Positions 544-40,911 of a stretch of DNA of 64,000 nucleotides are shown one piece after another. The translations under genes and the position numbers were made by a program. This stretch comes from Aquirufa antheringensis. GTDB lineage: Bacteria; Bacteroidota; Bacteroidia; Cytophagales; Spirosomataceae. The notes beneath the pieces are model-generated. The model was given only the letters and a program-made list of their open reading frames with translations, was not told the origin of the DNA and did no database searches. Location: NCBI RefSeq assembly GCF_004307425.1, contig NZ_SEWZ01000001.1, positions 497,662 through 561,661 on the forward strand, written 5' to 3'. Position 1 is the stretch's first letter; each line of letters starts with the position of its first letter.

Positions 544-641
544 AGTCGCTAGTCACTAGTCACTAGCAAAATTTTAAATTATATCTCTACTCTATAATCT
601 TTGCTCTTTAACTGTCGACTATCGACTAGCGACTGTCGACT
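544..641. repeat. Heptad repeat element F (gtcgact/agtcact words, inverted arms)
   Basis: The left arm has consecutive 7-bp words agtcgct, agtcact, agtcact at 544-564. The right arm has gtcgact, atcgact, agcgact, gtcgact at 614-641. The right arm read on the other strand gives agtcgac-type words, so the arms are imperfect inverted repeats. Between them lies tctctactctataatct (584-600), which recurs exactly at 33903-33919 in element D. The element fills the gap between the thioredoxin gene and dnaN. Function is unknown. Confidence 0.75.
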
Positions 642-692
642 ATGTTAAATTCATACAATTAATCCGGAGGATTAATTGTATGAATTTAACAT
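642..692. repeat. 24-bp perfect inverted repeat spanning the dnaN stop codon
   Basis: Positions 642-665 are the exact reverse complement of 669-692, with a 3-base spacer (gga, 666-668). The right arm holds the last six sense codons region and stop of dnaN (stop 672-674). The dnaN mRNA would therefore end in a long, AU-rich, fully paired hairpin. It has no T-run on the dnaN side and is not a standard terminator. It abuts heptad element F. Confidence 0.9.
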
Positions 693-5824: not shown

Positions 5825-6949
5825 TTAATTTGCTAAAACCGTTTTTAAACTCTGTAAAAATTGGTCCGCAATTTTTTGATCGATCGCTAAGCTCGGCAAA
5901 AGACGCAAGGTGTGCTTCCCAGAATAACCGCAGAAGATGTGTTCTTTAAATAATAAAGCATCTCTCACAGTCCCTACAGGCTGCTCTACCTCAATCCCGA
6001 TCATCAATCCGCGACCTCTCACTTCCGTAATTCCGTTTATGCCTTTCAGCTCTTTCTGAATATAGTCACCCACCTTCGATGCATTCTCGATCAACTTTTC
6101 TTCTTGAATCACATCCAGCACCACATTCGCCGCCGTACAAGCCAGGTGATTCCCCCCAAAAGTCGTCCCCAGCAAACCATAACTCGCCTGAATATGCGGC
6201 GCGATTAATACGCCACCGATAGGGAAGCCGTTGCCCATACCTTTGGCAGTCGTCATCATATCCGGATGAATTCCTGCAAACTGGTGCGAGAAAAACTGCC
6301 CAGAACGGCCATAGCCACACTGCACCGAGTCCAAAATCAATTGCGCCCCCGTCTCATCACAACGCTTTCTCAACGCCTGCAAGAACGCATCACTCGCCAC
6401 CTGAATACCACCCACACCCTGAATTCCTTCCACAATCACCGCCGCCGTTTCCTCCGTAATCCCCGCTTCCAATCCCTCCAAACCATTAAATGGCAAGAAA
6501 CTCACATGCGACGTGTCATTAATTGGCGCCACAATGCTCGGATTATCCGTCACCGCCACCGCCCCAGCCGTTCTCCCGTGGAAAGCCTTCGAAAACGCTA
6601 CCACCTTCTTACGACCCGTATGAAACGACGCTAATTTCAAGGCGTTCTCATTCGATTCCGCTCCTGAATTCGTTAAAAACAAGGTATAATCTTCGTATCC
6701 AGACACGCGACCCAGCTTTTCCGCCAGCTCCTGCTGACCCGAAATGATAATCGAATTCGAGTAGAAACCGATATTGTTCAGCTGCTCCGTCATTCGCTTC
6801 ACATAGGTAGGATGCGAGTGTCCGATGGAAATCACCGCGTGACCACCATATAAATCCAGGTATTCCTGGCCGTTTTTGTCCCACACCGTACTTCCTTTGG
6901 CTTTTACAAGCTCAATGTCGTAGAGGGGGTATACGTTGAATAAGTTCAT
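5825..6949 (-). CDS. argD: Acetylornithine (or succinylornithine) aminotransferase
   Basis: This 374-residue class III PLP aminotransferase is the last gene of the arginine operon. It makes N-acyl-ornithine from the semialdehyde produced by ArgC. The PLP lysine is K236 in TTAKGMGNG. The GAESNENALKLA segment (about 97-108) and the GTTFGGNHLA loop are typical. One oddity is that the usual D-E-V-Q motif reads DSVQ (207-210). In Bacteroidota the acyl group may be succinyl instead of acetyl, and the sequence alone does not decide this. It is separated from argC by heptad repeat element A, unlike the tightly spaced genes upstream. Confidence 0.9.
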   Translation of the reverse strand: MNLFNVYPLYDIELVKAKGSTVWDKNGQEYLDLYGGHAVISIGHSHPTYVKRMTEQLNNIGFYSNSIIISGQQELAEKLGRVSGYEDYTLFLTNSGAESNENALKLASFHTGRKKVVAFSKAFHGRTAGAVAVTDNPSIVAPINDTSHVSFLPFNGLEGLEAGITEETAAVIVEGIQGVGGIQVASDAFLQALRKRCDETGAQLILDSVQCGYGRSGQFFSHQFAGIHPDMMTTAKGMGNGFPIGGVLIAPHIQASYGLLGTTFGGNHLACTAANVVLDVIQEEKLIENASKVGDYIQKELKGINGITEVRGRGLMIGIEVEQPVGTVRDALLFKEHIFCGYSGKHTLRLLPSLAIDQKIADQFLQSLKTVLAN

Positions 6950-6953
6950 AATT

Positions 6954-7084
6954 CAAATTTCAAAGAGCAAAGCTCAAAGTTCAAAGTTCAAAGTTCAAAG
7001 AGTAAAGTTCAGTGGGGGCATTTCATCAATTCATCCGCGCAGCGGATTCGAACTTTGAACTTTGAACTTTGCTCTTTGGTATTT
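6954..7084. repeat. Heptad repeat element A (caaagtt words) inside the arg operon
   Basis: Eight consecutive 7-bp words of the form caaagNN run from 6954 to 7009, and five complementary words (gaacttt, gctcttt, ggtattt) from 7050 to 7084. The core between them (7010-7049) carries the palindrome ATCCGC-gca-GCGGAT (7033-7047). The transcript could form a long hairpin between argC and argD. It shares its words and core with elements at 11.8, 28.1 and 33.8 kb. Confidence 0.85.
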
Positions 7085-11773: not shown

Positions 11774-11777
11774 TTTT

Positions 11778-11924
11778 CAAAGACCAAAGCAAAAAGTTCA
11801 AAGTCGGTATCCGCTTCGCGTATGAACTCGTGAAATATTTTGCATTTTCTTCTAAAACTAAAAATGGGACCTGAGTCCCATTTTTAACCAACTTTGAACT
11901 TTTTGCTTTGAACTTTGCACTTTG
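11778..11924. repeat. Heptad repeat element B between proB and secA
   Basis: The left arm has words caaagac, caaagca, aaaagtt, caaagtc at 11778-11805. The right arm has aactttg, aactttt, tgctttg, aactttg, cactttg at 11890-11924. The core after the left arm (ggtatccgc..., then tcgtgaa and an A/T run) aligns with the cores of elements C and D, but here a terminator hairpin is inserted. The flanking genes converge. Confidence 0.8.
11860..11885. terminator. Bidirectional terminator between proB and secA
   Basis: AAAAATGGGAC (11860-11870) and GTCCCATTTTT (11875-11885) form a perfect 11-bp stem with a 4-base loop. A-run and T-run on both sides make it work in both directions, serving the convergent proB and secA. 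Confidence 0.88.
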
Positions 11925-28054: not shown

Positions 28055-28086
28055 AAAAAAAAGGCCCTTCAAAGGGTCTTTTTTTT
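28055..28086 (+). terminator. Terminator after DAHP synthase/chorismate mutase gene
   Basis: The A-run plus ggccctt (to 28069) pairs with aagggtc plus a T-run (28072-28086) with one G-U pair and a small loop. It is an intrinsic terminator 15 bases after the stop. Confidence 0.8.
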
Positions 28087-28094
28087 ATAAATTT

Positions 28095-28256
28095 AAAAGT
28101 TCAAAGACCAAAGTTCAAAGTTCAAAGGTGGTATCGCCTGCGGCGATGAGTTCGTGAAGGATTTTTCTTGAATGTATCCGCGAAGCGGATTCCGAATTTG
28201 CTCTTTGCTCTTTGCTCTTTGCTCTTTGAACTTTGCTATTTGAACTTTGCTATTTG
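28095..28256. repeat. Heptad repeat element C, the most complete copy
   Basis: The left arm has aaaagtt, caaagac, caaagtt, caaagtt, caaaggt (28095-28129). The core has two perfect palindromes, ATCGCC-tgc-GGCGAT (28133-28147) and ATCCGC-gaa-GCGGAT (28176-28190). The right arm has nine words, gaatttg, ctctttg four times, then aactttg and ctatttg alternating (28194-28256). The last word runs into the stop codon of the convergent EamA gene (28250-28252). Confidence 0.88.
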
Positions 28257-33743: not shown

Positions 33744-33922
33744 GGACAGTTGACAGTCGCGACTTTTTAAAGTTCAAAGAGCAAAGTTCAAAGTTCAAAG
33801 ATGGTATCGCCTGGGGCGATTCATTTGTGAAGTATTTTTCACAATTTCATCCGCGAAGCGGATACCTCCTTTGAACTTTGCTCTTTGAACTTTGCAATTT
33901 GCTCTCTACTCTATAATCTACA
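33744..33922. repeat. Heptad repeat element D, composite with nested words
   Basis: Outer left words ggacagt, tgacagt, cgcgact (33744-33764) resemble element F. Inner left words taaagtt, caaagag, caaagtt, caaagtt, caaagat span 33768-33802. The core has ATCGCC-tgg-GGCGAT (33806-33820) and ATCCGC-gaa-GCGGAT (33849-33863). Right words tcctttg, aactttg, ctctttg, aactttg, caatttg span 33867-33901. Then ctct-type words follow to 33922, including the 17-mer shared with element F. It lies between convergent pdhB and degP-like genes. Confidence 0.88.
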
Positions 33923-40824: not shown

Positions 40825-40911
40825 AATGGTAAATGGTAAATGATGAATGGTAAATGTTGACTGTGAATTTATTTTTCATTCACCATTTACCATTCACAAT
40901 TCACCATTTTT
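40825..40911. repeat. Heptad repeat element E (aatggta/cattcac words)
   Basis: The left arm has aatggta, aatggta, aatgatg, aatggta, aatgttg (40825-40859). The right arm has cattcac, catttac, cattcac, aattcac, cattttt (40877-40911). The arms are imperfect inverted repeats, same 7-bp period as the other elements but a different word and no GC palindrome core. It fills the whole gap between two convergent stop codons (40821-40823 and 40912-40914). Confidence 0.85.

Follow-up and report, generated by a model that had tools for sequence, protein, structure and literature searches.

A heptad element between two convergent genes

The gap near 28.2 kb of the window, i.e., the whole 64,000-nt stretch of Aquirufa antheringensis DNA analysed here (genome G000), is flanked by two convergent genes, those of a DAHP synthase/chorismate mutase and of an EamA transporter. 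It holds two inverted arms of 7-bp words, five on the left and nine on the right, around a core of hairpins (Table 1). The first-pass annotation had described this copy as 14 words flanking two perfect palindromes; the words and the perfect 6-bp stems are there, but the "palindromes" are hairpins with 3-nt loops, and an imperfect third hairpin sits between the two perfect ones. The terminator-like hairpin that follows the DAHP synthase gene folds as a single hairpin, and the RNA fold of the 28.2 kb stretch including this terminator has a z-score of -6.8. No Rfam family was matched within the window at gathering score. When the 28.2 kb DNA was compared with its own 2.5 Mb genome, 105 BLAST pieces were returned, corresponding to 62 candidate places.

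Table 1. Heptad arrays and associated hairpins in the window (strand "." where none is assigned)
Feature	Position	Strand	Description
28.2 kb element, whole	28096..28256		arm, hairpin A, centre with third hairpin, hairpin B, inverted arm
Left heptad arm	28096..28127	+	AAAG + TTC/ACC/TTC/TTC, then final AAAG; TRF period 7 and word list
Hairpin slot A	28133..28147	+	ATCGCC TGC GGCGAT
Centre, 28 nt	28148..28175	+	imperfect third hairpin TTCGTGAA GGATTT TTCTTGAA at 28151-28172
Hairpin slot B	28176..28190	+	ATCCGC GAA GCGGAT
Right heptad arm, inverted	28197..28256	-	CTTTGNN / ATTTGNN type
Bidirectional intrinsic-terminator-like hairpin	28055..28086	.	A8-GGCCCTTCAAAGGGTC-T8; follows the DAHP synthase stop codon and lies just outside the element
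Second complete copy (33.8 kb)	33769..33902	+	between transketolase gene and convergent ORF; 25-bp perfect heptad stem; hairpin A 33806-33820; centre 33821-33848; hairpin B 33849-33863
Copy with two slot types (11.8 kb)	11776..11924	+	slot A plain hairpin, one mismatch; slot B terminator-like
Terminator-like hairpin of that slot B	11860-11885		A5-TGGGACCTGAGTCCCA-T5
Copy with long heptad arms (7.0 kb)	6942..7078	.	one hairpin, ATCCGC GCA GCGGAT; covariance-model match E 2e-7
Inverted heptad pair, other word family (40.9 kb)	40825..40908	.	GGTAAAT / ATTTACC; short loop, without cloverleaf core
Inverted heptads, AGTC / GACT word family (0.6 kb)	544..643	.	CTCTATAATCT words in between; inversion by reading

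Inverted period-7 arrays had been announced in six gaps of the window and were found in all six, the pair near 0.6 kb by reading. Their grouping into one family holds in part: the AAAG-word copies near 7.0, 11.8, 28.2 and 33.8 kb share parts of a cloverleaf core, whereas those near 0.6 and 40.9 kb are built of other words and lack it. The cleanest copy is the one at 33.8 kb, which as a single strand forms a cloverleaf, its heptad stem closing three hairpins, with fold z-scores of -11.2 for DNA and of -10.4 (+) and -9.2 (-) for RNA; its covariance-model match of 101 bits is by construction, since this copy is included in the model.

Period 7 in intergenic gaps

We examined 464 kb of this genome, consisting of the window and 20 evenly placed 20-kb stretches, with 164 gaps of at least 40 nt. 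These gaps contain 19 period-7 runs versus none in five first-order Markov shuffles, so that the arrays are not, as the first-pass annotation had considered possible, as frequent in shuffled intergenic sequence; periods 2-6 and 8-13 gave 0-1 runs, and periods up to 30 that are not multiples of 7 gave at most 2. With the window excluded, the remaining 138 gaps hold 11 period-7 runs, and no other period between 4 and 13 gives more than one. Coding sequence gave one run at lag 7, like other lags (1-4), and a looser threshold yielded 44 heptad runs in 29 kb of gaps versus 2 in 430 kb of coding sequence.

The same count in relatives gave 23 period-7 runs in 460 kb of whole stretches from the genus (next non-multiple 3), 12 in 309 kb from other families of the order and 13 in 598 kb from the wider phylum (next non-multiple 5). 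Nine of the 12 runs of the order come from G026, the sole order relative that matches the element by BLAST; minus G026, there are 3 runs in 269 kb, with 0-2 at other periods. Similarly, 10 of the 39 phylum stretches belong to genomes chosen for matches to the pattern or the reversed pattern, and minus these the sample holds 9 runs in 463 kb, the next non-multiple being 5 (period 15). The period-7 peak is thus pronounced in G026 and across the genus, and modest in the remaining samples.

Inverted partners of any word were present within 220 nt for 12/21 runs in G000 (1/201 control stretches), 10/23 in genus relatives (4/213), 6/12 in the order (3/107) and 3/13 in the phylum (0/121), direct partners in the same test numbering 6, 5, 4 and 2, respectively. 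A word-agnostic consensus test of 137 adjacent runs classified 39 as inverted, 19 as direct and 79 as neither; with shuffled partners, the means were 11.7 inverted (maximum 20) and 8.6 direct (maximum 19).

As for the words themselves, the CTTTGNN-type collection of this genome comprises 60 arrays and 326 words, in which the TTT positions are near-invariant and the final two free (AA in 134 words, CT in 78, GT in 32, others in 82), the collection rule of CTTTG with at most one mismatch inflating the apparent fixed positions. The statement that words vary while period and polarity stay constant was borne out. By eye, other word families (AGTCNNN/GACTNNN, ACTGNNN, CATTYAC, CTMTANT) occur in the same gaps. 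Heptad runs are purine/pyrimidine skewed, with a median of 0.39 (n = 56) versus 0.125. Long inverted GAATGTA/GAATGAA heptad arrays were also seen in G016 (L128 731-1066), a genus member without the cloverleaf core.

Inverted pairs beyond the clade and agreement between arms

The exact pattern CAAAGNNCAAAGNNCAAAG-N60-90-CTTTGNNCTTTGNNCTTTG had 45 hits in named genomes, with ~1e-5 expected by chance: 17 in Cytophagaceae or Spirosoma MAGs, 7 in other Bacteroidota and 21 in other phyla or unplaced, the labels being the records' own. Sequences were examined for 33 of the 45. Inverted CAAAGNN pairs thus far from the clade occur in genomes labelled as other phyla; a plain four-word array is present in 16/296 phylum genomes. 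Carriage by phages or plasmids was rejected, as viral contigs gave 0 hits for two exact patterns and plasmids 0 hits in one BLAST search.

The two arms of a pair tend to speak the same dialect. In a set of 49 inverted AAAG pairs, drawn from the genus and from named relatives, both arms use dialect A in 33 and dialect B in 12, and the arms disagree in 4; this agreement of 45/49 (Fisher 6e-8) is not corrected for relatedness, includes orthologues and uses dialect classes defined after seeing the words. Outside the Cytophagaceae MAGs, the arms of 28 loci have 66 matching words versus 15.2 when arms are swapped between loci (0/2000). The 17 loci from Cytophagaceae MAGs have one common dialect, so that swapping their arms has no effect (1480/2000). 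Word order is another matter: it is slightly mirrored in the 49 pairs (12/1000 permutations reach the observed value) and not clearly so in the 28 loci (133/2000), the 17 MAG loci giving 103/2000. We therefore did not retain the idea that one arm is simply copied from the other in mirror order; quasi-palindrome correction of this kind would explain at most part of the pattern.

A clade-specific core with two unlike hairpin slots

The initial set of 20 hairpin pairs includes some artefacts. We aligned the 14 pairs with a 28-nt centre (13 loci, 8 species), 13 of them coming from two orthologous gaps (DAHP and transketolase) or from a copy next to one, and left out two true pairs with other centres, of 31 and 43 nt (L047). 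The aligned cores were selected for their 28-nt centre and therefore give no evidence for a fixed core length; the length is indeed not fixed, given the 31- and 43-nt centres and the many model matches elsewhere that span 70-124 nt instead of 86. The covariance model proposed in the first-pass annotation was built, and copies were counted: at E 0.01, 10 of the 38 genus genomes contain the core and the remaining 28 give no match, core-bearing genomes having 13-71 model matches each, both strands counted. The family that had been proposed, with hairpins at its core and heptad arms in inverted orientation, is real and dispersed.

Standard pairs fill 90% of the cells of the alignment, against 34-51% in slid versions and 88.2% with shuffled 3' letters. 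Pairs with two-sided change number 8 versus 5.0, a value reached by 14/500 shuffles; the covariation score is reached by 5/500 shuffles and the number of cells with two-sided change by 97/500. Two-sided changes are mostly located in the arms, only three such cells being in the three core hairpins.

The stem triplet adjoining the arm is perfectly complementary in 59 of 90 candidates versus a shuffled mean of 15.6, over five triplet types, the candidates being taken from a regex with false positives included. Of the 54 arm pairs whose arms lie 45-125 nt apart, 33 have both slots identified, and slots A and B differ in 32 of these; the same type was thus seen in 1/33 versus 7.6 expected (P 0.0016), and this sole element is one terminator seen from both sides. 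Thirteen of the 33 elements belong to the two orthologous gaps; after manual collapsing of the set to 16 gaps, same-type slots number 0 versus 3.4 expected (P 0.018), with only 5 of the 16 gaps without a terminator.

Half-units (arm plus hairpin) occur both single and paired. At L057 1070-1383 (G000 C3:402070), a half-unit of arm, hairpin and tail is repeated three times in tandem, with about 85-92 bp per unit. A closely similar heptad/terminator stretch is found towards both ends of contig C1 and at the start of C3 (L026 4814-5177, L053 36-228, L050 895-1153), so that the assembly may break in such repeats.

Turnover in two orthologous gaps

The DAHP and transketolase loci were each fetched from 30 of the 38 genus genomes, some cut by contig ends. 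The comparison of orthologous gaps that had been suggested turned up many without a period-7 run, namely 14 of the 28 readable DAHP gaps and 18/30 transketolase gaps, the remaining 14 and 12 having one.

Words change from one species to another in the same gap. At the DAHP gap, they are of CAAAGTT type in G000, G047 and G023, of AAAGCAC/AAAGAAT type in G013 and G002, CTCTACT in G015, and TAAGAGG and relatives in G003, G043, G006, G012, G022, G041, G042 and G011; the other 11 gaps hold no heptads and, by eye, mostly a terminator-like hairpin. Strings of TTAGTC-joined hairpins (TCGCGAAGCGA, GTCACTTCGTGAC, etc.) replace the heptad element in G007, G021 and G008 (L068, L069, L072), and similar TTAGTC-joined small hairpins, a second kind of repeat mosaic, were seen at L061 905-1104.

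At the transketolase gap, the core is kept, with arms of CAAAGTT type in G000 and G045, of AAAGCAC type in G047, G021, G015, G013 and G023, and mixed in G007; G043, G006, G022 and G041 have ACTAGTG-type words without the cloverleaf core. Tandem AGTCCGAAGGGAATT / AGTCCGGAGGAAATG units, a longer-period palindrome-bearing repeat, were seen in this gap of G002 (L100) and in L071. The core is oriented one way in G000, G007, G021 and G045 and the opposite way in G047, G015, G013 and G023, which, read by hand on a two-gene tree with some weakly supported nodes, would need at least two inversions.

Placement relative to genes and terminators

Heptad runs of any word prefer convergent gaps in this genome: they occur in 10/28 convergent, 7/86 tandem and 1/50 divergent gaps (6/22, 5/74 and 1/42 with the window excluded), the genes being ORFs called in this analysis and not the annotation. 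Among the AAAG-word non-coding arrays of this genome, part of whose loci entered the set through their match to the element, 41/67 lie in convergent gaps, and the gene on the 5' side points toward the array in 51/67. Single arrays in tandem gaps run along the direction of the upstream gene in 12 cases and against it in 5; G000 alone gives 7 to 5 with the 100-aa ORF cut-off used here and 8 to 2 with 60 aa. Loci from other phyla do not follow this bias (12/33, with crude gene calls). An orientation as 3'-UTR tails was rejected: the own clade is biased, the tandem singles stand at 12 to 5, and the other-phyla loci are unbiased.

The arms enclose a terminator-like hairpin in 15 of 57 inverted pairs; in 13 more, such a hairpin lies outside the arms at a distance of up to 80 nt, and 29 have one in neither place (the totals of 49, 54 and 57 pairs differ because array and spacing rules differ). 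When inside, it mostly occupies a hairpin slot, e.g., ATC-AAAAAAGCGGC..GCCGCTTTTTT-GAT. One has to consider that such hairpins are common in convergent gaps generally (15/28), and their presence between arms may thus reflect the gap only.

Relation to known repeats

The heptad arrays described here may resemble the STRR sequences of cyanobacteria. Heptamer arrays are a known kind of repeat: published studies present tandem heptamers as the most abundant repeats of prokaryotic intergenic regions (PMC6344855), report heptamer repeats from five Bacteroidetes (PMC4679880) and count 70 inverted heptamer pairs in Xcc and 75 in Xac (PMC4692102). The novelty put forward in the first-pass annotation was, in light of these sources, overstated; in the open-access literature, we found neither this element described nor any account of inverted heptad pairs from Bacteroidota. 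As in the heptameric intergenic repeats of Xanthomonas (GGGANTN) and Nostoc (GGGGAYT) and in the TAACTGA repeats of Beggiatoaceae, cyanobacteria and five Bacteroidetes, head-to-tail 7-nt units exceed other periods, lie between genes, combine fixed and free positions and are numerous in the genome; inverted pairs also occur in Xanthomonas (PMC4692102). Unlike in those repeats, several word families coexist here in one genome, the arms enclose a clade-specific three-hairpin core and agree in a dialect that varies from one species to another, and the core also occurs in inverted orientation.

The core resembles REP dimers: REP/BIME are likewise short dispersed extragenic hairpins, present as singles and inverted dimers with a structured spacer, and always heterodimers in some families (PMC3733652). 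With regard to a MITE, the arms are inverted and variable in length, and gaps without the element exist. Bidirectional intrinsic terminators occupy the same convergent gaps, and some pairs do enclose a terminator-like hairpin. In the other copies, the hairpins are plain and lack A/T tracts, or none was recognised; the heptad stem and the third hairpin are further differences.

Possible explanations

We tentatively favour, with a confidence that stays somewhat below even, a dispersed palindromic repeat located where genes end, most often between two convergent ones, that would act as a bidirectional 3'-end structure. Arrays would grow and shrink through slippage in steps of 7, selection or local recombination would maintain arm pairing, and recombination or template switching between inverted arms could flip the core and mix words, resulting in a shared vocabulary with a weakly shared order; the module might help to end or protect transcripts from both sides, as a terminator or a transcript-end hairpin. 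Convergent bias, terminators in slots, stem-triplet complementarity and unlike slots speak for such a 3'-end role, as do matched arm dialects, cloverleaf pairing and opposite core orientations. Several results count against it: 29/57 pairs come without a terminator, mirror order is weak, tandem singles are 12 to 5 and other phyla unbiased, pairing is still 88% after the 3'-letter shuffle, the number of cells with two-sided change is reached by 97/500 shuffles and only three such cells are in the core hairpins, and about half or more of the orthologous gaps lack a run. Moreover, where an external terminator works, a single RNA would not contain both arms. Finally, a 3'-end role does not explain the step of 7.

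A close rival, which explains almost as much and which we regard as a serious possibility on the doubtful side of even, is a non-functional repeat produced by heptad slippage and palindrome-driven template switching, tolerated where it is least harmful, between convergent genes; matched arms would then come from the mechanism (inversion or conversion between arms) and not from selection. The turnover of words and presence between species in the same gap, a vocabulary shared by the arms with no clearly shared order, and the variable element length outside the two best-sampled gaps all fit this proposal; the low count in divergent gaps (1/50) fits promoter avoidance, and a polymerase-slippage origin of heptamers has already been proposed (cited in PMC4679880 and PMC4692102). 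On the other hand, hairpin slots keep their complementarity over five stem triplets and avoid being identical, and slippage alone predicts neither one exclusive period nor the recurrence of the same three leading words across 60 arrays.

Much less probable, in our opinion, is a REP/BIME-like selfish element, in which the half-unit would be the REP, the full element a head-to-head heterodimer, and a transposase would act in trans. Dispersal over the 10 core-bearing genomes with their many model matches, single and paired half-units, heterodimers as in some REP families (PMC3733652) and orthologous gaps without the element are in line with it. However, the RAYT domain Y1_Tnp (PF01797) was found 0 times in the own genome and in 0/10 core-bearing genomes, several of which are only 73-90% complete, versus 12/28 other genus genomes; the consensus of the 14 cores (13 from two orthologous gaps) has no GTAG or CGTC tag at hairpin ends, the variable-length heptad arms give no fixed ends, and the viral-contig patterns and plasmid BLAST search had 0 matches. 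The RAYT-driven version is thus disfavoured, and Y1/RAYT mobilisation was rejected for the present genomes, even if it may have occurred in the past.

We find it similarly hard to believe that the arrays are binding sites, each heptad being putatively bound by a protein whose footprint spans 7 nt, e.g., a cold-shock-domain protein on the pyrimidine-rich strand, with which arm pairing would compete. The three commonest words (AACTTTG, CTCTTTG, GTCTTTG) recall d(GTCTTTG/C), the heptamer preferred by BsCspB (PMC7825780); heptad runs have the skew mentioned above, and a CSP-heptamer link was suggested for the TAACTGA repeats (PMC4679880). Nevertheless, the AGTCGAT and GACTATC families of the same genome are not pyrimidine-rich, CSPs are described as having limited binding selectivity, and the agreement of a single motif with a single class of words may be coincidental.

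A broader idea, which we consider unlikely yet worth stating, is that heptad arrays across Bacteria could be one phenomenon, with inverted pairs made and kept by an intrinsic 7-nt-step process, locus-specific interchangeable vocabularies and arms evolving in concert; the cloverleaf would be an elaborated form of it with a flipping hairpin/terminator core.

A genus as a test bed

Whatever the explanation, the genus offers a test bed in which the same gaps carry different words, arms agree, the core exists in both orientations, and more distant members have element-free gaps. With such comparative material, strains and reads make it possible to test what the elements do at transcript ends and by what mechanism they came to be inverted and to have a step of 7. 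Related species that keep the shape and change the words thus provide a handle on the old puzzle of bacterial 7-letter repeats.
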